In this document: piece after piece, positions 8,707 to 28,627 of the stretch | Layout of the letters: every line of letters starts with the position of its first letter | How positions within the stretch are numbered: the stretch's first letter is position 1 | Assembly: GCA_015494795.1 (NCBI GenBank) | Contig: WGAM01000046.1 | Span: forward strand, 1-32,041 | From: Campylobacterota bacterium | Lineage (GTDB): Bacteria; Campylobacterota; Campylobacteria; Campylobacterales; Sulfurovaceae | Length of the DNA: 32,041 nt | Reading direction: 5' to 3' | Program-made: the position numbers and the translations under genes | The notes under the pieces: generated by a model | The model's database searches: none | What the model saw: only the letters and a program-made list of their open reading frames with translations | What the model was told of the DNA's origin: nothing

Positions 8707-9588
8707 TTGTTCGTATCTGTACCAGCTACATCAGCAAATTTAGGACCGGGGTTTGATACTTTGGGATTAGCAATAAATTTTAGAAATGAGATAGTTATAA
8801 AACCAGCAAGATTTTTCTCTGTATCGACTCGTGGTGAAGGGGCTGAAAATCCACATATTCGTAAAAATATTCTTTTTATGAATATCTTTAATAAGCAGTA
8901 TAAGATTTTAAAAGGTAAAAAAGCTAATTTTAGATTTGAGTTTAATAATCGTATCCCTATATCAAGAGGATTAGGAAGCTCCTCAGCTGTTATTGTAGCA
9001 GCACTAACAAGTGCTTTTGTTGTAGCAGAAGAGAGATATAATAAGAGAAAAATATTAAGCTTAGCATTAGAGTATGAACCACACCCTGATAATATAACAC
9101 CTGCAGTTATGGGGGGATTTAATGTAGCTTTTATCGAAGATAGTAAAGTTTATAGTAAAAAAAGAAAAATACCAGACTATCTAAGAGCTGTTTTAGTAGT
9201 TCCAAACAAAACAATATCTACAGCAAAATCAAGAACTGTTTTACCTAATAGTTATAGTACTGATGAGGTTGTATATTCTTTGTCTAGGGCATCATTTATG
9301 ACGGCTCTCTTTATGAGTGAGTCATGGGATTTATTGAAGATTGCATCACAAGATAGACTTCATCAGACTAGAAGAATGAAACAGATGCCCGAGCTTTTTG
9401 AAGTACAAAAAATAGCACTTGCTAATGGTGGACTTATGAGTACTCTATCTGGTAGTGGTTCAACATTTTTTACACTCTGTTATGCTGATGATGCACCTAA
9501 AATCCATAAAGCATTAGATAGTAAGTTCCCTAAATATCGGGTATTTACGAAGTCTCTTGATAATTATGGTGTAACTTCAAAGAGTTAA
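8707..9588 (+). CDS. thrB: homoserine kinase
   Basis: ThrB phosphorylates L-homoserine to O-phosphohomoserine with ATP, the step before threonine synthase. The 293-residue protein is a GHMP kinase. It begins with the homoserine-kinase signature PATSANLGPGFDTLG (6-20), has the ATP loop PISRGLGSSSA (84-94), and has a late Gly-rich block LSGSGST near 250. The start is TTG, chosen because the signature normally begins within a few residues of the N-terminus. A GGGAG ribosome binding site lies a few nt upstream. The gene leads a block (thrB, ylxR, infB, rbfA, rimP) kept together in Helicobacter and Campylobacter, so an amino-acid gene is co-transcribed with translation factors. Confidence 0.93.
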   Translation: MFVSVPATSANLGPGFDTLGLAINFRNEIVIKPARFFSVSTRGEGAENPHIRKNILFMNIFNKQYKILKGKKANFRFEFNNRIPISRGLGSSSAVIVAALTSAFVVAEERYNKRKILSLALEYEPHPDNITPAVMGGFNVAFIEDSKVYSKKRKIPDYLRAVLVVPNKTISTAKSRTVLPNSYSTDEVVYSLSRASFMTALFMSESWDLLKIASQDRLHQTRRMKQMPELFEVQKIALANGGLMSTLSGSGSTFFTLCYADDAPKIHKALDSKFPKYRVFTKSLDNYGVTSKS

Positions 9589-9609
9589 TAACATTATTTA
9601 GGTATAATT

Positions 9610-9861
9610 ATGCAAAGAAATGAACCTATACGCATGTGTATAGCATGTAGAGTAAGGGGACTACAAAAAGAGTTAATACGACTACAACAAAGCAAAGATA
9701 ATATTTACCCATATAGTGGTAGAGGTAGAAGTTTCTATTTATGTCGTATCTGTAGTAAAAATGAAAAAAAAGTCAAAGGCTTAATTAAGCGTTTCAGACT
9801 CTCTAATAATGATAGTGAACGGTTTGTTAAGTATTTAAAGGAGTTAGATAAGAATGGATAG
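9610..9861 (+). CDS. ylxR: YlxR / DUF448 family RNA-binding protein
   Basis: This 83-residue basic protein carries the YlxR hallmarks RMCIACR (8-14) and GRGRSFYLC (37-45). C10, C13, C45 and C48 are placed so that they could hold a metal. YlxR proteins bind nucleic acid, are usually encoded just upstream of infB, and have been linked in Gram-positive bacteria to RNase P and to regulation. The exact role here is inferred. The gene is 21 nt after thrB and overlaps infB by 8 nt. Confidence 0.88.
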
Positions 9862-12604
9862 AGTGAAAATCCAAGAGATAGCATCAGAAGCTGGTGCATC
9901 TAATGCAGTCCTTATAGCAAAGGCAAAAGAGTTAGGTTATGATGTAAAATCAGGAAATAGTACACTTACTATAGAAGAGGCTGATATATTGGCTGATTAT
10001 GTAATGAAAGGTATTAAACCTAAGAGAGATGAAAAGCCAAAAGTTAAGAGAAAAGTTACTGTTAAAAAACATGCTGGAATAGTATCGACTCCCAAAAAGG
10101 CAAAAATCTCAATAAGAGAAGCTAAAGAGACTCCTAAAATAGTAGAGCCAATAAAAAAAGTAGGTTCAAAAATTAAATTTTTAAATAGAAAAGAGGAGAT
10201 TAAACAGAAAACTCCTCCTAAAGAGCCTAAAGATAAAGAGAAAAAAGAGATTAATGTTAAACAAGAGGTTAAACCTACTCCTAAAAAAGAGGAGATAAAA
10301 CCAAAAGAGATAGAGAAGATAGAGGAGAAACCTAAAAAAGAGGAGTCTAAAAGTCCCAAAAAGATAAGAGTTAAAAGAAAAAGAGTTGGTATTACAGTTA
10401 TTAAAAAATCTGATAAAAAGAGACCAAAGATTAGAATTGTTGATGATAGAAAGCCTGAAAAAGAGACTAAGCTCATTAAAAAATCTGAACCTAAAGCTAT
10501 GCCGACTCCTCCATCTAAGAAAAAACCTAAAAAAGTAGCACAAGCAAAAAATAGTGGACAGAAACTCAATTTTATGACAAACTCAAATTTTGGTACTGGA
10601 CGAAATATTGAAGAGATAGAAGAAGAGCCTGAAGTTTTAATGCTTGATTTTTCAGATAAAAATATCTATGAAGATATGATAAGACAAGAGCAGAAGAGAA
10701 AAGAAGAGGCTAAAAAGAGAGCTACAGTAGGTGGTATTCAAAATCATGGTAGAGGTCAAGGGCAACATAGAAAAAGACCATCTGGACTTAGAAGAGGTAG
10801 TGGAAAGAAAAAGAGATATATTAAAGAGGAGAGTAGTGAGCAGATAAAATCAATTCAGATACCTGAAAATGTAAGGGTATATGAGTTTGCTGAAAAGATT
10901 GGTAAAACTACTGGTGAGATTATTAGAGTCCTATTTACATTAGGAAGTATGTTTACACAGAATGATTTTCTTGATAAAGACTCAATAGAGATTTTAGCCG
11001 ACGAATTTAATATTGAAGTAACAACAATAGACCCATTAAATGAGCTTGATTATGTAAAAGCTTATGATGCAGTAGAGGATAAAAACCTAGAAGAGAGACC
11101 TCCAGTTATTACAATTATGGGGCATGTTGACCATGGTAAAACATCACTTCTTGATAGAATTAGAAAAACAAAAGTTGCAGCAAAAGAGGCAGGAGGAATT
11201 ACTCAACATGTTGGTGCTTATCAAGTTGAGAAAAATGGTAAAAAAATATCTTTTATAGATACTCCGGGTCACTCAGCATTTACAGAGATGCGTTCTCGTG
11301 GAGCTGAAGCTACTGATATTGTTATTATTGTAGTTGCTGCTGATGATGGAGTGAAAGAGCAGACAAAAGAGGCAATATCTCATGCAAAAGCTGCTGGAGT
11401 TCCTATTGTTGTAGCTATCAATAAGATGGATAAAGAGGGGGCAAATCCAGAGAGAGTTAAATCTCAATTAGCAGAGCTTGATATTACACCTATTGAGTGG
11501 GGAGGAGATTATGAGTTTATCCCTCTCTCTGCTCATACAGGAGAGGGGATTGATGAGCTATTAGAGACTCTACTTCTTACAGCTGAAGTTATGGAGCTTA
11601 AAGCAGACCCTACAAGAAATGCAAAAGCAGTTGTTGTTGAGAGTTCACTTGAGAAAGGTTTTGGTGCAGTTGCTGATATTATAGTTCAAAATGGTACATT
11701 AAAGATTGGTGACCCTTTTGTAGTTGGAACTACACATGGAAAGATTAGAACTATGATTTTAGATGATGGAACTAGAGCTAAAAAGATTGGACCTAGTACT
11801 CCTGCTGCTATTGTTGGATTATCTAAAGTGCCAACAGCTGGTGATATTTTAATTGTTATGAATAGTGAAAAAGAGGCAAAAGAGATAGCTGATAAGAGAG
11901 CAGAGTATGAGAGAATTAAAGAGCTTTCAAAAAGTAATAAAGTTACTATTGAAGATTTATCTGCTGTTATTGCAGAGGGTAATCTCAAATCTCTTCCTAT
12001 AATTATTAAAACAGATGTTCAAGGCTCACTTGAAGCTATAAAAGGTAGTTTAATTAAACTTAAAAATGAAGAGGTTAAAGTTAATATTATACATGAGGGT
12101 GTAGGTGGAATAAGTGAGAGTGATGTTCAACTTGCAAATGCATCTGAACACTCTATTATTTTAGGATTTAATGTTAGACCTACTGGAAATGTTAGAAAAA
12201 GAGCAAAAGAGTTGGGTGTTGAGATTAGGACATACTCTGTTATATTTGAACTTATTGATGATATTAAAGCACTACTTGGTGGTATGATGAGTCCTGTTAT
12301 ATCTGAAGAGGTTACAGGACAAGCAGAAGTTAGAGAGACATTTAGTGTTGCAAAAATTGGAACTATTGCAGGTTGTAAGGTATATGATGGCTCTATTATT
12401 AGAAATGCAGGTGCTAGAGTTATCCGTAATGGGGTTGTTATATATGACACTAAAATTAAATCGCTTAAGAGATTTAATGATGATGTAAGAGAAGTTAAGA
12501 GTGGATTTGAGTGTGGAGTTATGCTTGAAAACTTTAATGATATTAAAGAGGGTGATGTAATAGAGACATATAAAACTGTAGAAGAACAAGTAAAACTTGA
12601 TTAG
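9854..12604 (+). CDS. infB: translation initiation factor IF-2
   Basis: IF-2 is the GTPase that brings initiator tRNA to the 30S subunit and promotes subunit joining. The 916-residue protein begins with an IF2N domain (about 1-55). A very Lys/Glu/Pro-rich disordered linker (about 56-330) and a second IF2N-like domain (about 335-390) follow. The G domain has GHVDHGKT at 423-430, DTPGH near 469 and NKMD at 523-526. Domains II, III and IV run to the end, including a C-terminal initiator-tRNA-binding barrel. The start is the ATG overlapping the end of ylxR. The linker explains the long antisense open frames seen opposite it. rbfA starts 9 nt after its stop. Confidence 0.97.
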
Positions 12605-13532: not shown

Positions 13533-13772
13533 TTGAAAAAAATTGGATTTATTATTATTTTATCTATAAATCTTTTAGCAAATAGTAACCAATCATTTTT
13601 TTCTGCTAGTATTATACATCAAAATATTAATAACTATTCAAATACACAGGCTCAAAGTTTCTTTAAATCAGAAAATAGAAAAAATAAAAAAAAGAGTGGT
13701 TTTAGTATGGGATTTCAAAAGATGAGTAAAGATATTAACTACTTTGTAGTTAATACTATCTATAAATTTTAA
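13533..13772 (+). CDS. small predicted secreted protein, unknown
   Basis: I do not recognise this 79-residue protein. Residues 2-16 (KKIGFIIILSINLLA) form a convincing signal peptide, followed by an Asn/Ser/Gln-rich segment and a basic stretch (RKNKKK at 49-54). The frame starts at TTG with AAAGG about 6 nt upstream, and a TATAAT lies at 13515-13520. It ends 12 nt before the OmpA-like gene, whose own AAAGGAG site overlaps its 3' end. The position suggests an envelope role together with that gene. The coding status is supported by the signal peptide and ribosome binding site but not by any homology I can recall. The 123-nt gap before it holds no other recognisable element. Confidence 0.5.
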   Translation: MKKIGFIIILSINLLANSNQSFFSASIIHQNINNYSNTQAQSFFKSENRKNKKKSGFSMGFQKMSKDINYFVVNTIYKF

Positions 13773-13784
13773 AGGAGATAAATT

Positions 13785-14600
13785 ATGAGGATATTTTTAC
13801 TGCTGTTATTATGGTTAATGCTAATTTCTATGCTATCATATTTCTGTTTTTTAACAAAAAAGAGAGATATTAAATATATAGATAAAAATAGTACAATAAA
13901 AAGAAGTACCAATACTATAGAAAATAATATTTCAGATACTCCTCCCAAAGATATAAACAATACAACTATTAAATCAATAATAGAGACAAATAAAAGTATC
14001 GGTAGCCAAGAGAGTAAAACTATTAAAGATACTACCACTCTAATTGATAAAAATAGTACAGAAAATAATAACTCCTCTCTTTTAAAAGATGAAGAAGAGT
14101 TAGATGATAATAGAACAGAGAGTAAAGATATAAATAGCTCTTTAGAAGAGAAATTAATTCAACAGTATGAAGAGGAGAGTAGTATATCTACTCCACCAAC
14201 TCCTACAAAAAAAGAGAATAATAGTACTCTATCCATATGCAAAGATAGACTAAAAGATATTTTATCTAAAAATAAGATATATTTTTATAATAATAGCACA
14301 AAAATTAAAAAGAGAAGTTATCCTATTTTAGATAAAATTATAGATATATCTAAAGATTGTAGAGATACTAAGATAGTTATTGCAGGATATACAGACTCTT
14401 CGGGTAGCAAGAGAAATAATTTAAAAGTTAGTAGAAAGAGAGCAAATTCAGTAAAAGAGTATTTTATAAAAAAGGGTATTAAAAGAGATAGATTAGAAGC
14501 AGTTGGATATGGAGAAGCAAATCCAATCGCCTCTAATAAAACAGCTAAAGGTAGAGAGAAAAATAGAAGAATAGAAATTAAAATAAAAGGGGAAAGATAG
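13785..14600 (+). CDS. OmpA-family protein with a sequon-rich linker
   Basis: The 271-residue protein has an N-terminal hydrophobic helix (3-23), a long hydrophilic Asn/Ser/Thr/Asp/Glu/Lys linker (about 28-150) and a C-terminal OmpA/MotB peptidoglycan-binding domain (about 152-268). The domain shows GYTDSSGS, NLKVSRKRANSVKEYF and GYGEANPIASNKT, and the closing NRRIEI segment. C21 is not in a good lipobox, so an uncleaved membrane anchor is more likely than a lipoprotein. The charge after the helix (KKR) is unusual for an exported tail. The linker contains nine D/E-x-N-x-S/T sequons (listed separately). It probably tethers the envelope to peptidoglycan. It has a strong AAAGGAG site and overlaps the next gene's GTG by 1 nt. 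Confidence 0.82.
   Translation: MRIFLLLLLWLMLISMLSYFCFLTKKRDIKYIDKNSTIKRSTNTIENNISDTPPKDINNTTIKSIIETNKSIGSQESKTIKDTTTLIDKNSTENNNSSLLKDEEELDDNRTESKDINSSLEEKLIQQYEEESSISTPPTPTKKENNSTLSICKDRLKDILSKNKIYFYNNSTKIKKRSYPILDKIIDISKDCRDTKIVIAGYTDSSGSKRNNLKVSRKRANSVKEYFIKKGIKRDRLEAVGYGEANPIASNKTAKGREKNRRIEIKIKGER
13881..14228 (+). other. cluster of nine bacterial N-glycosylation sequons
   Basis: Within residues 33-148 of the OmpA-like protein, nine Asn residues sit in the full PglB consensus D/E-x-N-x-S/T: N35, N48, N58, N69, N90, N95, N109, N117 and N146. No central residue is Pro. The segment has 15 Asn, 23 Asp/Glu and 34 Ser/Thr in 116 residues, which by independence predicts about one sequon. IDKNST occurs twice (32-37 and 87-92) and KDIN twice, so the linker has partly repetitive structure. 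Glycosylation is inferred. Confidence 0.8.
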
Positions 14601-15247
14601 TGGATAGTCTATTAACAGATATATTTTGGTGTCTATTAATTGCAGGATTAATAGGTTTAGTAATTGGGTGGTTTATTGGTAAAGTTAAATATAAAAATGA
14701 GGTAAATAGTGTTAAAAATGAACTAAAACTTAAACTAAATAAACATAGTGATAGGTGGGAAGCAAAATTAGAGAGAGTATTATCTGAAGAGAGAGAAAAA
14801 TTAAGAAAAGAGAGAGATATTTTTAATAGTGAAAAAGAGGAGCTAAATAGTAAAATTCAAGAGCTTATAAATCAACAGAGTAGTAAAAGTATAGAGATAG
14901 ATAAACTAAAAAAACGACTTTTAGTAGCTAAAGATGAGGCAAAAAAGATAGAGCAGAAATTTAAAGATGAGTTTTTAGAAGATACTAAAAAACATAAAAA
15001 TAGAGTCTCTATGCTTCTAAATAAGGTTGATGTTAGACACAATAAAGAGTTAAGTGATTTAATCGAAAGTTTGGTTACAGTTGAGGGTAGAGCCATAAAA
15101 GAGGAGGCAGAACTTAGATATAGATTAAAAGATACTGAACAGAGATTTACAAATAAGGTTGCTAGTCTAAATAGAGAGATAGAGAATTTAAAAAAAAGAG
15201 TACACAACCTTATTGATGCAAAAAAGATTAATATAAATATAGGTTAA
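14600..15247 (+). CDS. membrane-anchored coiled-coil protein, unknown
   Basis: I do not recognise this 215-residue protein. It has one N-terminal membrane helix (about 8-27, glycine-rich) followed by a basic segment, which by the positive-inside rule places the rest in the cytoplasm. From about 33 to 210 it is almost entirely charged heptad-like sequence, predicted as long coiled coils broken near 140-155. The GTG start overlaps the OmpA-like stop (TAGTG), and the ribosome binding site is AGGGGAAAG. A bitopic coiled-coil protein coupled to a peptidoglycan-binding protein suggests an envelope or cell-shape scaffold. That is inference from context. Confidence 0.7.
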   Translation: MDSLLTDIFWCLLIAGLIGLVIGWFIGKVKYKNEVNSVKNELKLKLNKHSDRWEAKLERVLSEEREKLRKERDIFNSEKEELNSKIQELINQQSSKSIEIDKLKKRLLVAKDEAKKIEQKFKDEFLEDTKKHKNRVSMLLNKVDVRHNKELSDLIESLVTVEGRAIKEEAELRYRLKDTEQRFTNKVASLNREIENLKKRVHNLIDAKKININIG

Positions 15248-19093: not shown

Positions 19094-20347
19094 CTACAAT
19101 CTCCCATCTGCACTCTTTAATACTGATTTAATATCAAATACCACTTGGTCACCTACCTTTAAATCTAAATCTCTATAATCATTATGGGCTACTGCTAATA
19201 CTACTGCATCATAGCTCTCTATATCAACATTAACCTCATCTATTAAATCTAAATTATACTCTCTTTTTACTTCATCTTTATCAGCCCAATAGTCACTAAC
19301 ATCTACTCTGCAACCAAAATCCTCTAACTCTCTAATAACATCAATAACTCTACTATTTCTAATATCGGGACAGTTCTCTTTAAAGGTTATCCCTAACACT
19401 AAAACTCTTGACCCTTCTATCTTTTTACCCTTTTTTATCATAAGCTTAATAACTTGATTAGCCACATATATTCCCATATTATCATTTAATCTTCTACCAG
19501 CTAATATAATCTCTGGGTGGTAACCAACCTCTTTTGCCTTATGGGTTAAGTAGTATGGGTCAACTCCAATACAGTGTCCACCAACTAATCCCGGTTTAAA
19601 TTTTAAAAAGTTCCATTTAGTTCCAGAAGCCTCTAATACAGCATTAGTATCAATTCCAAGTTTTCCAAATATCATAGATAACTCATTTACAAATGCTATA
19701 TTTATATCTCTTTGGGAGTTCTCAATAACTTTGGCAGCCTCTGCTACCTTAATAGATGGAGCTAGATGTGTACCTGCTGTAATTATTGAGCTATATAAAT
19801 CATCTACTCTTTTACCTATCTCTGGAGTTGAACCAGATGTAACTTTTAAAATTTTTGTAACTGTATGCTCTTTATCACCCGGATTAATTCTCTCTGGCGA
19901 GTATCCACAGAAGAAATCTTTATTAAACTCTAATCCTGATACTCTCTCTAGTATAGGTACACACTCCTCTTCAGTTGCTCCCGGATATACAGTACTCTCA
20001 TAAATTACAATATCTCCCTCTTTTAAAACCTTACCTATTGTTTCACTAGCTTTTATTAGAGGTGTTAGGTCTGGTTTTTTATGTCTATCTATTGGAGTTG
20101 GAACTGTTACAATATATATATTACAATCAGCAATATCCTCCAATCTATCTGTAAACTCCATTCCATTATCTATAGCCTCTTTTACCTGTTTTTTAGTTAG
20201 CTCAAGAGTTCTATCTACTCCATTAGATAACTCATCAATTCTCCATTTAGCTATATCAAATCCTACTACTTTATATTTAGATGAGAAAGCGTGTGCTAAT
20301 GGGAGACCAACATAACCTAAACCGATAACTGCTATTTTAATATTCAT
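19094..20347 (-). CDS. UDP-N-acetylhexosamine 6-dehydrogenase (WbpO/TviB type)
   Basis: The 417-residue nucleotide-sugar dehydrogenase should oxidise C6 of a UDP-HexNAc twice to the uronic acid, using NAD. It has the N-terminal GLGYVGLP Rossmann loop (9-16), VPTP near 82, [11 protein letters not shown] (148-158), the active-site C259 in [12 protein letters not shown], and [15 protein letters not shown] in the C-terminal domain. The ERINPGD and CPDIRNSRV segments point to the WbpO/TviB branch (UDP-GalNAc or UDP-GlcNAc) rather than UDP-glucose dehydrogenase. It begins at an ATG 36 nt after kpsF. This is the only real gap in the operon, and it holds a TATAAT (minus strand, 20380-20375) that may be an internal promoter. 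Confidence 0.88.
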
Positions 20348-21329: not shown

Positions 21330-23120
21330 TTAATTCCTTTGGTGGTTAAATTCAGGTACTATATCTTTTAAAAGTTTTAGTAGAGTAGTCTCATCACTAC
21401 TATTAACTAATCTATCTATTTTAATATTTAAATCATTATAATCTATAGGTGGATTTTGAGAGACTAAAATAGAGCTATATTTTGTCTTTAACTCTGCATC
21501 ACTAATCAATAACTCCTCATATAGCTTCTCACCTGCTCTTAGACCTGTAATTTTAATCTCTATATCATCTCTACCAGATAACTCTATCATCTTTTTAGCT
21601 AAATCATAAATCTTAACAGGCTTACCCATATCTAATATAAATAGCTCTCCACCCTTAGCAATAGACCCTGCTTGAAGAACAAGTTGACAAGCCTCTGGTA
21701 TCATCATAAAGTATCTTGTAATATCTCTATGGGTTACAGTTATTGCCTCTCCTTTTTCTATTTGAGATTGAAATTTAGGAATAACAGAGCCAGAGCTTCC
21801 AAGAACATTTCCAAATCTAACAGCAACAATCTCTGTCTCTTTTGATGGAACAGCTCTTGCATAAAGCTCACATACTCTCTTAGTTGTCCCCATAACATTA
21901 GTAGGTCTTACAGCTTTATCTGTTGAGATAAGTATAAATTTTTTGACTCTATATTTGATAGATAAATCTATTACATTTTTACTCCCTATAATATTATTAT
22001 TAATAGCCTCTTTAATATTCTCTTCACATAGTGGAACATGTTTATATGCAGCTGCATGTATTACAATATCTGGAGTATATCTTTTAAATGTTCTATCTAA
22101 CATATTTCTCTCTTGAACATTCTGCATAATAGCTACGCTTTTACTACTATCCATCTGCTCATTAATAGAGTAGAGATTAAATTCACTATTATCAACTAAG
22201 ATTATCTTTTTAGCTCCAAATATCTCAACCTGTCTTGATATTTCACTCCCTATACTTCCACCTGCACCTGTAATTAATACTACTCTATCTTTTATAAAAG
22301 ATGCTATACTCTTTTTATCTAAATCTTTAGGCTTTCTAGCTAGTAAATCCTCTATTGATATATCTTTGAGAGTAGGTTTATCATCTTTTAGAAGTTGTAC
22401 CACCTTTATCTCACTCACTCCATCTTTATGAAGTTTTGTGAAGAGTCTATCTAACTCTTTTTGGGTTAATCTCTTAGCGATAATTACAGCCTCAATATCT
22501 AACTCATCTATAACACTCCCTAATCTATTTATTCCATATACCATTAGATTAGAGAAATATGTACCTATTAAATCTCTCTTATTAGATATAAGTGCAATAG
22601 GTTGATATGGTATCTCATCTGCCCAGGCACTCTTAATAATATTAATAGCTCTCTCATTAGCACCAATTATTAGAGTTCTCTTCTGAATATTGCCTCTACT
22701 TCTCTCTATATATAATCTTTTTGATATTCTAATAAATCCTATAAAAAATAGAGATAGAGATAGGTCAATTACAACTACACTTCTTGGAAATGGTCTAAAG
22801 AACTCATAAAAAAAGAGAACTATTAAATAGAATATAGAGTAGGCAAATATGTGTGCAAATACTATTCTTCTATACTCAACCAATCCAAAATATCTCCACG
22901 CTATAAAATATATCTTAAATATAAAAAATAGAGCTATCTTAATGGGAATTAAAATCCACATAGCTCTAAACATAGAGTCTAAAAAGTTAGGTGGTATATG
23001 AAAATTAAATCTTAAAAGATATGCTATTGATATGGTAGCAATAGATATAACTATATCAAAAGAGATAAAAAATATAACTCTCTTTAGTTGTGTCGGCTTA
23101 AATAGTAAATCTTTTAACAT
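21330..23120 (-). CDS. pglF: UDP-GlcNAc 4,6-dehydratase PglF
   Basis: PglF performs the first committed step to UDP-diacetylbacillosamine, making the 4-keto-6-deoxy sugar from UDP-GlcNAc. The 596-residue protein has four N-terminal membrane segments (about 14-36, 55-75, 88-108 and 115-133) and a CoA-binding-like region (about 145-240). The catalytic short-chain dehydrogenase domain follows, with GAGGSIGSE at 285-293. The active site reads T400-D401-K402 and M410-x3-K414. As in C. jejuni PglF, Met replaces the usual catalytic Tyr, which separates it from soluble dehydratases of the FlaA1/PseB type. It overlaps pglE by 7 nt and starts at an ATG. Confidence 0.95.
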   Translation of the reverse strand: MLKDLLFKPTQLKRVIFFISFDIVISIATISIAYLLRFNFHIPPNFLDSMFRAMWILIPIKIALFFIFKIYFIAWRYFGLVEYRRIVFAHIFAYSIFYLIVLFFYEFFRPFPRSVVVIDLSLSLFFIGFIRISKRLYIERSRGNIQKRTLIIGANERAINIIKSAWADEIPYQPIALISNKRDLIGTYFSNLMVYGINRLGSVIDELDIEAVIIAKRLTQKELDRLFTKLHKDGVSEIKVVQLLKDDKPTLKDISIEDLLARKPKDLDKKSIASFIKDRVVLITGAGGSIGSEISRQVEIFGAKKIILVDNSEFNLYSINEQMDSSKSVAIMQNVQERNMLDRTFKRYTPDIVIHAAAYKHVPLCEENIKEAINNNIIGSKNVIDLSIKYRVKKFILISTDKAVRPTNVMGTTKRVCELYARAVPSKETEIVAVRFGNVLGSSGSVIPKFQSQIEKGEAITVTHRDITRYFMMIPEACQLVLQAGSIAKGGELFILDMGKPVKIYDLAKKMIELSGRDDIEIKITGLRAGEKLYEELLISDAELKTKYSSILVSQNPPIDYNDLNIKIDRLVNSSDETTLLKLLKDIVPEFNHQRN

Positions 23121-24214
23121 ATATTTTCTATAACCTCAACTACTCTATATAACTTATCAAAATCTTTAGTTGGAGATGGGAGACATATACCTCTTCTATA
23201 TAAATCCTCACTTGTTCCATCTATAAAATATTTAGGAGTATCTTTAAATAGGGGTTGCAAGTGCATAGGTTTCCATAGAGGACGACTCTCAATATTAGCT
23301 CTCTCTAAAGCCTCTATCACTCTTTTAGGATTGGTTTTATTAAAAGTTAAAGTAGTAAGCCATCTATTTCCTCTACTATTTTTAATCTCTGGCATAAAGT
23401 TAATCTCACTAATATTAGATAACTCTCTGCTATAAAAATTAAATATCTCTCTTTTCTGCTCTACTCTCTTATCTAAAACCTCCATCTGTGCTACCCCTAT
23501 TGCTGATAGAACATTGCTAAGTCTATAGTTATATCCAAACTCTCTATGCTCATAGTGTAAAAATGGCTCTCTAGCCTGAGTAGATAGAAATTTAGCTCTC
23601 TCTATCCACTCTCTATTACTACTAATTAAGATACCACCACCACTTGTAGTTAATATCTTATTTCCATTAAAGCTAAATACACCTAAATCCCCAAATGTTC
23701 CACTCTGTTTACTGTTAAAAGATGCACCTAAAGACTCTGCACTATCCTCTATTAGATATATACTATTCTCTCTACATATCTCAACTATCTTATCAATCTC
23801 TGCCATCTGTCCATATAGATGAGTTAAGATTAGAGCTTTAGGCTTTTTAGGTAACTCTTTAATAGCTCTTTTTAAAAGCTCTGGAGATAAATTCCAACTA
23901 CTATTACTATCAATAAATATTGGCTCTGCCCCTTGATATAGAATGGAGTTTACTGAGCCAATAAATGTAAAAGATGAAGCTAATACTAAATCGCCTCTTC
24001 CTACCCCTAATACTCTTAAAGCAAGATGTAGTCCAGCTGTAGCTGAAGATAGTGCCACTGCATAATCAATATTACAATACTCTTTTATACTCTTTTCAAA
24101 CTTAGTAACATAAGCACCTGTTGGTGCAATATAGTTACTCTTAAATACCTCATCAATATATCTCTGCTCCTTTCCACTCATATGTGGTGGAGATAAAAAA
24201 ATTCTATCATTCAC
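23114..24214 (-). CDS. pglE: UDP-4-amino sugar aminotransferase PglE
   Basis: PglE is a PLP-dependent DegT/DnrJ/EryC1 aminotransferase that adds the 4-amino group to the PglF product using glutamate. The 366-residue protein opens with FLSPPHMSG (6-14), characteristic of PglE. It has the DSAESLGA block (157-164) and the PLP lysine K186 in FSFNGNK, and ends with the GICLPSP segment. The start is GTG, inside the pglD stop (8-nt overlap). Order here is D, E, F along transcription, compared with F, E, D in C. jejuni. Confidence 0.95.
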   Translation of the reverse strand: MNDRIFLSPPHMSGKEQRYIDEVFKSNYIAPTGAYVTKFEKSIKEYCNIDYAVALSSATAGLHLALRVLGVGRGDLVLASSFTFIGSVNSILYQGAEPIFIDSNSSWNLSPELLKRAIKELPKKPKALILTHLYGQMAEIDKIVEICRENSIYLIEDSAESLGASFNSKQSGTFGDLGVFSFNGNKILTTSGGGILISSNREWIERAKFLSTQAREPFLHYEHREFGYNYRLSNVLSAIGVAQMEVLDKRVEQKREIFNFYSRELSNISEINFMPEIKNSRGNRWLTTLTFNKTNPKRVIEALERANIESRPLWKPMHLQPLFKDTPKYFIDGTSEDLYRRGICLPSPTKDFDKLYRVVEVIENIC

Positions 24215-24809
24215 AATTTTCCCTTATAACCCTACATGGATTTCCATAAGCTACACTATTACTATTAATATCTCTAACAACAACAGAACCAGCTCCCACT
24301 ATTGAGTTTTCGCCAACACAAATACCCTGAATTATTGATGTCCCAACTCCTATATGTGTGGCTCTCTTTATAGTAACATTACCAGATAGTGCCACATTTG
24401 GGGAGATATGTACAAAATCCTCTATAGTGTTCTCATGCTCAATAACTGAAGCACTATTTAAAATCACCCCTTTTCCAATTTTTGCTAATGGATTAATAAT
24501 AACTCCTGCCATAATAATAGTCCCCTCTCCAATAGTTACACTATCTGCTATAACTGCTGTTGGGTCAATTAGAGTTAAAATATTAAATCCATACTCTTTA
24601 ACTCTATTAAAAAGTTTTTCTCTAACTCTATTATCTCCAACTCCTAAAGCTATATCAATACTATTATTATCTCTTATATCATCAAATGATAAATAGGGGT
24701 TAGCTCCATCATCAATTAGAATTATATCACTATATCCAGATTTTTTTGCTATATTGGCAACTACCAAACCGTGTCCACTAGCTCCATAGATATAGATAGC
24801 TTTTTTCAT
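24207..24809 (-). CDS. pglD: UDP-4-amino sugar N-acetyltransferase PglD
   Basis: PglD acetylates the 4-amino group with acetyl-CoA to finish UDP-N,N'-diacetylbacillosamine. The 200-residue protein has an N-terminal UDP-sugar-binding Rossmann-like part (GASGHG at 9-14) and a left-handed parallel beta-helix of hexapeptide repeats (about 85-190). H125 in SVIEHENTIED is at the exact position of the catalytic His125 of C. jejuni PglD. It begins with ATG 2 nt after the pglC stop. Confidence 0.95.
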   Translation of the reverse strand: MKKAIYIYGASGHGLVVANIAKKSGYSDIILIDDGANPYLSFDDIRDNNSIDIALGVGDNRVREKLFNRVKEYGFNILTLIDPTAVIADSVTIGEGTIIMAGVIINPLAKIGKGVILNSASVIEHENTIEDFVHISPNVALSGNVTIKRATHIGVGTSIIQGICVGENSIVGAGSVVVRDINSNSVAYGNPCRVIRENCE

Positions 24810-24811
24810 AG

Positions 24812-25402
24812 TTAATGATTTCCTTGAAACTTCTCTACTGTTATAGAGTTATTAGATGATATATCACTTCGCTTAATCACTTTTAGAAAAGTTAACCATA
24901 AAATTTTTAAATCTAGTAAAAATGATTGATTATCAACATACCATACATCATATCTGAATTTATCTTCCCAACTAATAGCATTCCTCCCATTAACTTGAGC
25001 CCAACCTGTAATACCGGGTAGCACAGAGTGTCTTCTACTCTGCTCTTCATTATATAGAGTTAGATATTCAGCTAAAAGTGGTCTAGGTCCTACAAAACTC
25101 ATGTCTCCAATTAATACATTAAATAGTTGTGGTAACTCATCAAGACTACTCTTTCTAATTGCTAATCCAACTCTATTTAATCTCTTCTCATCAGGGAGTA
25201 ACTCACCATTTTCATCTCTCTCATCACTCATTGTTCTAAACTTATATATTGTAAATAGTTTTCCATCTAATCCAGCTCTTGTCTGTCTAAATATAATAGG
25301 TCTCCCTATCTTAAAATAGATAATTATAGATATAATTATAAATATAGGTAATAGTATAATTATTAAAATAGTAGCTAATATAATATCAAATAGTCGTTTC
25401 AT
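24812..25402 (-). CDS. pglC: undecaprenyl-phosphate phospho-diNAcBac transferase PglC
   Basis: PglC is a monotopic phosphoglycosyl transferase that moves phospho-diNAcBac from UDP to undecaprenyl phosphate on the cytoplasmic face. The 196-residue protein has the re-entrant N-terminal helix (about 5-30) and the [13 protein letters not shown] segment (54-66). The catalytic Asp-Glu dyad D88-E89 lies in SLDELPQ, followed by FVGPRPLL (103-110) and [13 protein letters not shown]. Small size without extra membrane helices fits PglC rather than a WbaP- or WecA-type enzyme. It abuts the glycosyltransferase stop. Confidence 0.94.
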
Positions 25403-26530
25403 TTATAAGTTTTCCAATTCATTTTTTAATTTGCTTAAAAAAAGCTCTTGATTATATCTTTTTATAATTGAATTTCTGACATTAGATTTTAATTTAAGGT
25501 AGAGTTTTTTATCTTTAATTAGAGACTCTATTCCATTAGCTAAACTATCTATACTCTTTTTCTCTACTAATATACCATTCTCTCTATCTATAATAATCTC
25601 ATTGCATCCGTTTATATTAGTAGCTAATAGTGGTACTCCAAAAGAACCAGCCTCAAGAAGAGAGTTTGGTAAACCCTCTCTATATGATGGTAATACAAAT
25701 AGAGATGATATAGATAGATATGGACGAATATCTTTTTGAAAGTCTATTCTAATAATATTTTGATTACTATTTAATATCTCTATATTATCTATTGGATTTA
25801 AATCTGCCTCAAAATCCCCAACTATTAAGAGTTTAATATCTCTATATTTTCTATTTAGAATAGTGAATGCTTCAATAAGCTCATCTACCCCTTTATCTTT
25901 TACAACTCTTCCAATAAATAGCAGAACAAAATCTTTCTCCTTAATATTAAGCTCTTTTCTTAATCTATCTTTCTCCTCTTTAGTATATATATCTCTAAAA
26001 AAATCTATATTAACTCCATTTATAGAGCCATTTCCAATAACCTTAACCTCTCTTTTAGTTAAATTATTATGGATAAACTCTCTTAATCCATAACTATTAC
26101 AAAATAGATTTGTAGCAAAAGAGTAGGTTAATCTCTCAATAAACTCTAATAAAATTCTCTTTTTACCAGAGGTCTCCATTAATGGCATACCTACAATATT
26201 ATGAACTCTCTTTGGAACTCTTGCAAAAAAAGATGCTACCATTCCAAGAAGTCCCGCTTTAGGTGTAAATGAGTAAACAATATCAGGTTTAGTTTTTAAT
26301 AAATAGAGATATATCTTAATTAGAGATTTTAAATCTTTTATTGGAGTAATCTTTCTACTCATATCAATAGAGATAACTTTTACCCCCTCATACACTTCTA
26401 TATCTCTATTAGAGGGGCTACTAGAGGTTATAAGAGTTACATTAAAAAATTTAGAGAGATATTTAGGTTGCCCCCTAACTAATGTGGCTAGACTTAGGGG
26501 GACTGTTGTAATTATTATGAGTTTTTTCAA
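25403..26530 (-). CDS. GT4-family glycosyltransferase, position of PglA
   Basis: The 375-residue GT-B enzyme probably adds the second sugar to undecaprenyl-linked diNAcBac, judged by its place between pglB and pglC. The C-terminal half has the GT4 donor-site pattern: LFIGRVVKDKGVDEL near 200-214, then the paired-Glu block SYREGLPNSLLEAGSFG. The N-terminal acceptor half (TPKAGLLGM, HNIVGMPLMETSG) looks more like WbpT/capsule-type transferases than C. jejuni PglA, so I do not call it pglA. The start is TTG with AAGG about 8 nt upstream, in the end of pglB. Donor could be UDP-GalNAc or the HexNAc uronate made by its neighbours. Confidence 0.85.
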   Translation of the reverse strand: MKKLIIITTVPLSLATLVRGQPKYLSKFFNVTLITSSSPSNRDIEVYEGVKVISIDMSRKITPIKDLKSLIKIYLYLLKTKPDIVYSFTPKAGLLGMVASFFARVPKRVHNIVGMPLMETSGKKRILLEFIERLTYSFATNLFCNSYGLREFIHNNLTKREVKVIGNGSINGVNIDFFRDIYTKEEKDRLRKELNIKEKDFVLLFIGRVVKDKGVDELIEAFTILNRKYRDIKLLIVGDFEADLNPIDNIEILNSNQNIIRIDFQKDIRPYLSISSLFVLPSYREGLPNSLLEAGSFGVPLLATNINGCNEIIIDRENGILVEKKSIDSLANGIESLIKDKKLYLKLKSNVRNSIIKRYNQELFLSKLKNELENL

Positions 26531-26533
26531 ATA

Positions 26534-28627
26534 TTAAACCTTAAGTTTAAATACCTTTACAAAAGGTGTGAGTATTGTTGGTTCAAATAGTTTATGGTCA
26601 TAGTGTTCTAATACAAATAGTTGAATATATGTAGAGTTAAATAGTCTCTTATCTAATATTAAGAATTGATTATAATTCTTCATATATATAACATATACTC
26701 CAGAGCCAATATGTAGATGTTTAGTTGTTGTATGTAAGAGTCCCTTCTTATCATACTCTGTTGTAACTAACTGCTCTATTGGTAAAATATTGTTACCTCG
26801 TCTAATACTCCCTCCAATAATCTGCATACCATTACTAAGATAAAAACTGTTTATAGTTCGTTTAATTAAACCTGCTCTAATAAATAGAGGACTTCTATAG
26901 TTTCTCCCTGTTGCTGGATTTAGATTAGAGAATAGGTCAATAGTCGGTAGAATATCCATCATCTTAAATGGTAAGTAGTAGTATATATCTCTTCTCTTTT
27001 TAGGTAGCTTTATATCTGAATTTAGAGATGATATAAACTCATTTACACTACTCTTTCCATACTCTCTCATACCTTTCTCTAAGAGTGTACCTGTAAAGTT
27101 ACTATCTCTTAAACTTCTCTCTTTATACTCAGCATATAATCTTGCAATATTTGCTGATGCCTTTTGGTTATGTAGAAGAGCAAAGCTAACAGGATAGTTT
27201 GCACTTCCACTATGTCTTGCACCATCAATAAATGTCTTAACATCAGAGTAGTATCTAATAGGATAACCATAATCCCACCAAGCTAAGACATAATCCTCTC
27301 TTGAAGCTATATTTTTTAGCTTATCTAAAACAGTTACTGTTGATTTTCTAAATACAGTTGGAACTTTATAGTTCTCTATATGTATTATATTTGGTATAAT
27401 TATAGCCATTGTAGCAATAGCTATAAAGGCTAATTTTGATTTTTTATCCTTAAAATAGTCTGATATATAGATAATTAAATATCCCATACTAAGAGCCAAA
27501 ATTGGAACAGCATATACTGTAAATCTAAGTCCACCCCATAGAGCTATAAATCCAAGTCCAACTAGAGGAAGAGATAGTAAAAATATACGATTTTTAAAAA
27601 TTAAGAGTATATAACCTATAATTGAGAGAATAAATGTAACAGTGTGTCCACTAATACGGTTAGCAAAAAGCTCAAAAGGTATAGCTCCAGCCTCTCTTAC
27701 TGTCTTTACAACTGAAAAGTAGTGTAACCCCTCATTAGCTATAGTATCTGAGCTATCTCTAAATAGGTATCCATTAACTCTATTAATGATTGGGTCAAGT
27801 CCACCTGTTGCAAATATCATTAATATAGAGATAGCCAATATTAAAAATACTACTCTCTTATCCAAATCTGATTTAATATGAAAAAATCCAAAAAGAGCTA
27901 ATATAATTGGTATTTTTATAACTAAATCTATTTGAGATAGAGAGATTAACATAAAAATTAATACCTTATAGTTAAATATATCTTTTCTATCAAAAATTAG
28001 AGTATATAATAGAGTAACTACTGTCATAGATAGACTTAATGAGTAGTTTTGAAAATACCACCAGTTAGATAGAACCATAAAAAAAGATACAAGCAGAATA
28101 TATCTATTTCTCTTTTTTAAAAGAGCATATATAGTAGCCCAGAGTGTAAAGGTTGGTAGAACAATAGTTAACATATCCGTATCATAATATCCTGTCATTG
28201 TTCTATTATAATAGCTCCAAGCAATACCACCTAGCAATGCCCCAATAAATCCAGCATACTCCATATTTAAGACTCTTGCTATTAACATAATAGGGATAAC
28301 TAGAAGTGAGCCAAAAAATGTTGGCATCCAAAGAATAATAGTCTCAAAAGAGAATGGTAAAATCTTTGCTAAAAATGCTGTAACTATAGCTAGAGAGCTA
28401 TCAATAAATGAGCCATCACCCTTTTGATGTCCCCCTGCTAATATATCTCTAGCACCCTCTGCATAACCATACCCATCATTAGTATTAATCATTAGTTGAC
28501 TGTTCCATTTAAAGGCATCAACATCATGAAATTGATATACCCATATTGTTCTAACTAAAATGCTAAATAGATAAGCTACTACTATTAGTATGATAAAATT
28601 TTTTGTAGATAGTTTAAAGTTTGTCAT
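26534..28627 (-). CDS. pglB: oligosaccharyltransferase PglB (STT3 family)
   Basis: PglB transfers the lipid-linked glycan en bloc to Asn in periplasmic sequons. The 697-residue protein has about 13 membrane helices (1-415) and a periplasmic C-terminal domain. Metal and catalytic residues are visible: D51 in NDGYGYAEGARD, D149 and D151 in GYYDTDML, and E312 in the TVRE (TIxE-like) motif. The sequon-recognition motif WWDYG is at 450-454, with a MMDI block near 556. It also contains its own sequon, D508-x-N510-x-T512, in the periplasmic domain. It starts the operon, with an extended -10 promoter and an AGGAAAA ribosome binding site. Confidence 0.96.
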   Translation of the reverse strand: MTNFKLSTKNFIILIVVAYLFSILVRTIWVYQFHDVDAFKWNSQLMINTNDGYGYAEGARDILAGGHQKGDGSFIDSSLAIVTAFLAKILPFSFETIILWMPTFFGSLLVIPIMLIARVLNMEYAGFIGALLGGIAWSYYNRTMTGYYDTDMLTIVLPTFTLWATIYALLKKRNRYILLVSFFMVLSNWWYFQNYSLSLSMTVVTLLYTLIFDRKDIFNYKVLIFMLISLSQIDLVIKIPIILALFGFFHIKSDLDKRVVFLILAISILMIFATGGLDPIINRVNGYLFRDSSDTIANEGLHYFSVVKTVREAGAIPFELFANRISGHTVTFILSIIGYILLIFKNRIFLLSLPLVGLGFIALWGGLRFTVYAVPILALSMGYLIIYISDYFKDKKSKLAFIAIATMAIIIPNIIHIENYKVPTVFRKSTVTVLDKLKNIASREDYVLAWWDYGYPIRYYSDVKTFIDGARHSGSANYPVSFALLHNQKASANIARLYAEYKERSLRDSNFTGTLLEKGMREYGKSSVNEFISSLNSDIKLPKKRRDIYYYLPFKMMDILPTIDLFSNLNPATGRNYRSPLFIRAGLIKRTINSFYLSNGMQIIGGSIRRGNNILPIEQLVTTEYDKKGLLHTTTKHLHIGSGVYVIYMKNYNQFLILDKRLFNSTYIQLFVLEHYDHKLFEPTILTPFVKVFKLKV

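Follow-up and report, generated by a model that had tools for sequence, protein, structure and literature searches.

The window, by which we mean the whole stretch of 32,041 nucleotides that was analysed, comes from an uncultured Campylobacter relative, known only as a draft assembly, and carries an OmpA-family gene rich in bacterial N-glycosylation sequons, a coiled-coil gene that adjoins it and, on the opposite strand, a cluster of pgl genes. The features are listed here in plain order, with sequons called strict when they read [DE]-x-N-x-[ST].

13785..14600, plus strand: sequon-rich OmpA-family gene, 271 aa, with an RBS-like AGGAG just upstream
13788..13871, plus strand: N-terminal hydrophobic anchor, about residues 2-29, from sequence (AlphaFold helix 2-30, pLDDT 87-89)
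13881..14228, plus strand: predicted disordered linker, residues 33-148 (116 aa), with nine strict sequons (AlphaFold pLDDT <50 for residues 28-144)
13881..13895, plus strand: sequon 1, DKNST (Asn35)
13920..13934, plus strand: sequon 2, ENNIS (Asn48)
13950..13964, plus strand: sequon 3, DINNT (Asn58)
13983..13997, plus strand: sequon 4, ETNKS (Asn69)
14046..14060, plus strand: sequon 5, DKNST (Asn90)
14061..14075, plus strand: sequon 6, ENNNS (Asn95)
14103..14117, plus strand: sequon 7, DDNRT (Asn109)
14127..14141, plus strand: sequon 8, DINSS (Asn117), D/E-x-NSS in all four homologues that lack a BON region
14214..14228, plus strand: sequon 9, ENNST (Asn146)
14280..14567, plus strand: OmpA C-terminal-like peptidoglycan-binding domain, residues 166-261 (Pfam PF00691, E 9e-25), with no strict sequon inside
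14600..15247, plus strand: gene for a coiled-coil protein with a TM segment, which overlaps the stop codon of the OmpA gene and adjoins that gene in relatives too
21330..23120, minus strand: pglF-like 4,6-dehydratase
23114..24214, minus strand: pglE-like aminotransferase
24207..24809, minus strand: pglD-like acetyltransferase (PglD_N domain; NeuD/PglB/VioB family, over cut-off)
24812..25402, minus strand: pglC-like phosphoglycosyltransferase (Bac_transf)
25403..26530, minus strand: glycosyltransferase family 4, pgl cluster
26534..28627, minus strand: pglB oligosaccharyltransferase (STT3/PglB core, N- and C-terminal domains by Pfam)

The ORF at 13785-14600 (+) encodes a 271-aa protein whose C-terminal domain scored 87.3 bits against a curated Pfam cut-off of 27.2, which places it in the OmpA family, with Pal, MotB, OmpA and YiaD as its relatives in the PDB. 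The protein resembles the MotB, Pal and YiaD-type anchors in joining a membrane anchor to a peptidoglycan-binding OmpA domain, and it differs from them in its long, sequon-packed linker and in falling under every NCBIfam cut-off tested for the named subfamilies (Pal, YiaD, MotB and TssL), the best score being that for YiaD (123.7 against a cut-off of 175), with Pal at 75.8 against 125. AlphaFold2, given an alignment of the nine homologues only, predicted the N-terminal helix and the OmpA domain confidently and assigned residues 28-144 a pLDDT below 50, which we read as disorder with that nine-sequence alignment behind it. The Pfam match, the predicted helix and the disordered middle agree with the sequence-only reading, in which the linker joins a membrane anchor to a peptidoglycan-binding domain. 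The residues right after the TM helix are basic (KKR) and would be assigned to the cytoplasmic side by a naive positive-inside rule; the N-terminal anchor, the OmpA domain and the BON domain of homologues suggest that the sequons face the periplasm. Lipoprotein anchoring was rejected by eye, LSYFC being unlike a lipobox. A phage origin was also considered and set aside, phage matches spanning only the OmpA domain and nearby residues at an identity below 60%. Upstream of the gene lies a TTG-initiated ORF of 79 codons (window 13533-13772, +). In genome G016 the orthologue is preceded by a gene for a 150-aa outer-membrane-like protein (L050:5485-5937), and the window ORF matches the two ends of that protein, as though an in-frame deletion had removed the central part.

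Of the 15 Asn in residues 33-148, nine (35, 48, 58, 69, 90, 95, 109, 117 and 146) lie in complete strict sequons with no Pro at x, so that our recount reproduces the figures first given for this linker of 116 residues. When the linker was shuffled on its own residues in 200,000 trials, strict sequons averaged 0.79 with a maximum of 7 against the nine observed, close to the "about one" first estimated for chance, and general N-x-S/T motifs averaged 4.2 with a maximum of 11 against 12 observed. D/E occupies -2 in 9 of these 12 motifs. Relative to the linker Asn, D/E peak exactly at -2 (9) and S/T exactly at +2 (12), which indicates more than richness in Asn, Ser, Thr and Asp; the acidic -2 residue and the shuffle excess uphold the earlier assignment to a PglB-type consensus over general Asn/Ser richness. 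We regard the presence, the excess and the retention of the sequons as well established, and multiple N-glycosylation of the linker as likely.

The pglB product of the window aligned with C. lari PglB over 690 residues (E 1.7e-161) and matched the Pfam STT3/PglB core and C-terminal domains. Its score of 648.5 bits lies under the 1300 of the NCBIfam PglB equivalog NF050801, a cut-off tuned to Campylobacter, with homology extending over the whole length. Residues D56, R147, D154, D156, E319, R331, R375 and the WWD motif of C. lari PglB are identical in the window enzyme, where D51, E312, R324 (equivalent to R331) and WWDY are the local numbering, and the catalytic residues and the R331 equivalent are invariant in 16 PglB proteins (the window's and 15 from relatives). 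In C. lari PglB, R331 contacts the acidic -2 residue. As judged from these residues, the window PglB is an intact enzyme of the strict type that reads an acidic -2.

The system is like the general N-glycosylation of C. jejuni and C. lari in that its PglB is homologous over the whole length, shares the catalytic and -2-reading residues and has pglC-, pglD-, pglE- and pglF-like genes adjoining, and it is unlike that system in having galE and a UDP-GlcNAc C-6 dehydrogenase (TviB family, over cut-off; window 19094-20347, -) beside the cluster. These two genes may mean a HexNAcA-containing glycan, and the TviB-type enzyme recalls WbpO, the UDP-HexNAc dehydrogenase that takes part in the N-glycan of H. 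pullorum (PMC6025236). H. pullorum has PglB1 and PglB2, and G016, G017 and G006 likewise have two PglB homologues, whereas the window genome has a single PglB and a second was not found in it. The second homologue of G016 is a divergent PglB/STT3 protein with 30% identity and the same catalytic residues (L050:8928-10955, -), encoded roughly 1.5 kb away on the far side of the OmpA/coiled-coil gene pair. Two ABC transporters of fitting size in the window genome (C66 and C86) are candidates for the PglK flippase, and could be PglK or MsbA.

We next consider the homologues, a set that comprised the window protein (genome G000) and those of eight further genomes, with 34 genomes of the same genus examined. 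Strict sequons numbered 9 in G000, 6 in G016, 13 in G006, 8 in G017, 9 each in G021, G011 and G007, 7 in G003 and 10 in G026. The linkers before the OmpA domain are long and strongly diverged among the nine proteins, which together hold 79 sequons there against 4.6 expected, and 1 against 1.1 expected inside the OmpA domain; every one of the nine has more sequons than any of 5,000 shuffled versions of its linker. The window protein and those of G016, G006 and G017 have the TM-linker-OmpA layout, and in the latter three an orthologue of the coiled-coil neighbour, 61-92% identical to the window's, lies beside the OmpA gene. The other five (G021, G011, G007, G003 and G026) have a longer N-terminal region, which holds a BON domain in G021, the single member tested; in this group the first sequon falls at residue 114 or later, past the BON region, and a weak coiled-coil gene match (27-38%) adjoins the OmpA gene in G021, G003 and G026.

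Asn residues within sequons were retained more often than others. Among the three closest proteins (G000, G016 and G006) sequon Asn were kept at 0.90 versus 0.36 for other linker Asn, and in the longer group at 0.82 versus 0.55. D/E and S/T interchange at kept sites while the Asn stays constant: in the three closest, 10 of 38 kept cases had D and E swapped at -2, and differences at the x positions were seen in 61 of 96, as in the aligned sets DDNRT/EGNTT/EENVT and ENNNS/ENNNS/EKNET. Because the protein alignment (MAFFT) may pull sequons together, G000, G016 and G006 were re-aligned as DNA, which reduces this bias, and sequons were permuted within residue classes. In all six ordered pairs five sequons remained aligned with one another, against 1.4-2.2 expected (permutation p 0.0015-0.028, the six pairs not being independent). 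Conservation of position fades in G017, where despite its eight sequons no more than one or two fall in a shared column, a pattern suggesting that positions turn over while the number stays high. The sequence-only reading had proposed as its own test that sequons be kept while the linker drifts, and the count of 6-13 per homologue and the Asn retention of the closest three turned out that way. It seems to be the abundance of sites, and less their positions, that is under selection, and a high site number amid a changing linker points to a dense sugar coat kept up by natural selection.

A sample of about 669 kb of the host genome, including the window, was used to determine how sequons are distributed among ORFs split into exported and cytosolic by a simple hydrophobicity rule. 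Exported ORFs (n=115) carried 104 strict sequons versus 30.6 expected (3.4x) and cytosolic ORFs (n=338) carried 83 versus 79.3 (1.05x), while control motifs (reversed, shifted and [KR]-x-N-x-[ST]) stayed at 0.81-1.39 of expectation. Exported sequons favoured D over E at -2 (78/112, p 1e-4). With the OmpA-family protein left out, the excess was still threefold (95 versus 31.6). Of the 490 ORFs with 150 aa or more, this protein had the second-highest density, after a lipoprotein with 22 sequons. That lipoprotein is a predicted product of 528 aa with a signal ending in LSGC (L078:11468-13054, contig C23), for which about 2 sequons are expected and no Pfam match was found. A coiled-coil protein with an OmpA domain at its end (L062:17523-19280, contig C10) has 11 strict sequons, many as E/A-NLT in heptad-like repeats, and similar proteins occur in G005, G022 and G001. 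Adjacent pilin- or pseudopilin-like proteins on contig C27 (L082:8215-8958 and 8958-9917) carry 8 and 5 strict sequons, respectively, the second with a type IV pilin methylation motif.

Relatives in which PglB was not found gave a divided answer to the question, raised in the sequence-only reading, of whether pgl-negative relatives lack sequons. In the complete genome G043, where two profiles and one protein search found no PglB, exported ORFs carried 16 sequons versus 11.9 expected (z 1.1), which is not significant and fits such a lack; cytosolic ORFs fell below expectation (48 versus 66.9), which leaves a difference between the compartments that is smaller than the host's but not nil. In the draft genome G034, from the same family, exported ORFs (L112-L131) were enriched (23 versus 7.8 expected, an excess of 2.95) despite no PglB being found by profile or protein search, which goes against it. 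G034 also lacks a gene that adjoins PglB in its sister G151, so that loss of the PglB region and a gap in the draft are indistinguishable, and the excess means either that PglB lies in a gap, that it was lost recently or that the footprint has another source. G007 and G026, with genomes 70% and 82% complete, have dense linkers and gave no PglB match.

We think it probable that the OmpA-family protein undergoes ordinary PglB N-glycosylation, of which it would be an extreme substrate, and that it is an inner-membrane-anchored periplasmic protein with a glycan-coated disordered spacer. The TM helix would anchor the protein in the inner membrane and the OmpA-type domain would grip peptidoglycan, with the disordered linker of about 115 residues spanning the gap between them. 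As the linker enters the periplasm, PglB would transfer its glycan from the undecaprenol carrier to the majority of the nine sequons, and glycans about 14 residues apart on average would make the linker stiffer, longer and shielded from proteases. We infer the occupancy of the sites, the topology and the spacer or shield function.

It is possible, but in our judgement rather unlikely, that these are real PglB sites that serve no particular role, harmless or mildly favourable glycans having accumulated on flexible exported segments so that density is a property of the whole proteome. Exported proteins are indeed enriched overall and others are equally dense, and other OmpA-family proteins of the genus (for example in G004, G029 and G031) do not show it, so density is not needed for the architecture. 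However, harmless accumulation alone predicts neither a linker excess over composition nor the preferential retention of the Asn and of the acidic -2 residue.

A different proposal, made from the sequence alone, was that the protein is a dedicated partner of the local glycosylation system and is co-produced with it, and this we regard as improbable. The pgl genes do share the window, and the second PglB homologue of G016 lies close to its OmpA gene. Against this, pglB and the OmpA gene are about 12 kb apart on opposite strands in the window, whose genome has no second PglB among the sequences searched, and in G016, G006 and G017 the orthologue is found on one contig and the pgl-type PglB on another, so their nearness in the window is probably incidental. 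The threefold enrichment of exported proteins without this one, along with the other dense proteins, likewise speaks against a dedicated substrate and makes it an extreme member of a wider set of sequon-rich exported proteins in the genus, not a unique case. Least credible of all is a by-product of composition or short repeats in a low-complexity spacer rich in Asn, Ser, Thr, Asp and Glu, for although N+D+E make up 28% of the linker and S/T 29% in a genome of about 29% GC, and a run of ELNxT units in the G006 linker resembles local repeat expansion, same-composition shuffles never reached nine, all nine homologues surpassed their own shuffles, control motifs in exported proteins lay near expectation and kept sites swapped D/E and S/T.

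The substrate reading that we favour has a partial precedent in an OmpA-family N-glycoprotein of Campylobacter (C. hepaticus A0A6A7JTI1, C. jejuni Q0PAR8), for which three glycosites were reported in C. hepaticus (PMC9816155). It is likened to the window protein by its OmpA family and its D/E-X-N-X-S/T sites, with three sites versus nine. An OmpA-family glycoprotein was already known; no description of a natural linker of such sequon density was found in literature that covered a minority of subscription journals. The same literature yielded nothing on Cj0599 or on glycosite counts per C. jejuni protein. An engineered acceptor carrying ten sequons is glycosylated by the C. jejuni enzyme, full occupancy not being claimed (PMC11164674). 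In C. jejuni that had lost PglB, 21 of the 35 glycoproteins detected were less abundant (PMC6478998), which is in keeping with a protective role.

Natural sequon-dense linkers might serve as acceptor tags for glycoengineering of laboratory strains. The threefold excess of sequons in exported but not cytosolic proteins offers a footprint, readable from sequence in genomes known only as assemblies, that could reveal whether an organism has, or had until recently, an active PglB that is strict at -2. Sequon-dense linkers also bear on the reasons for which bacteria attach N-glycans to so many proteins, and give a testable case: nine to thirteen sequons per roughly 115-150 residues, and 22 in one lipoprotein, is a natural density far above expectation and retained amid sequence change, so glycan number itself seems to be under selection. 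We suggest, tentatively and at somewhat less than an even chance, that this genus may have a bacterial counterpart of mucin-like or stalk regions, with disordered linkers of envelope proteins selected for the number and not the position of their PglB N-glycans, and that N-glycosylation may act as a structural coating of several of its envelope proteins.
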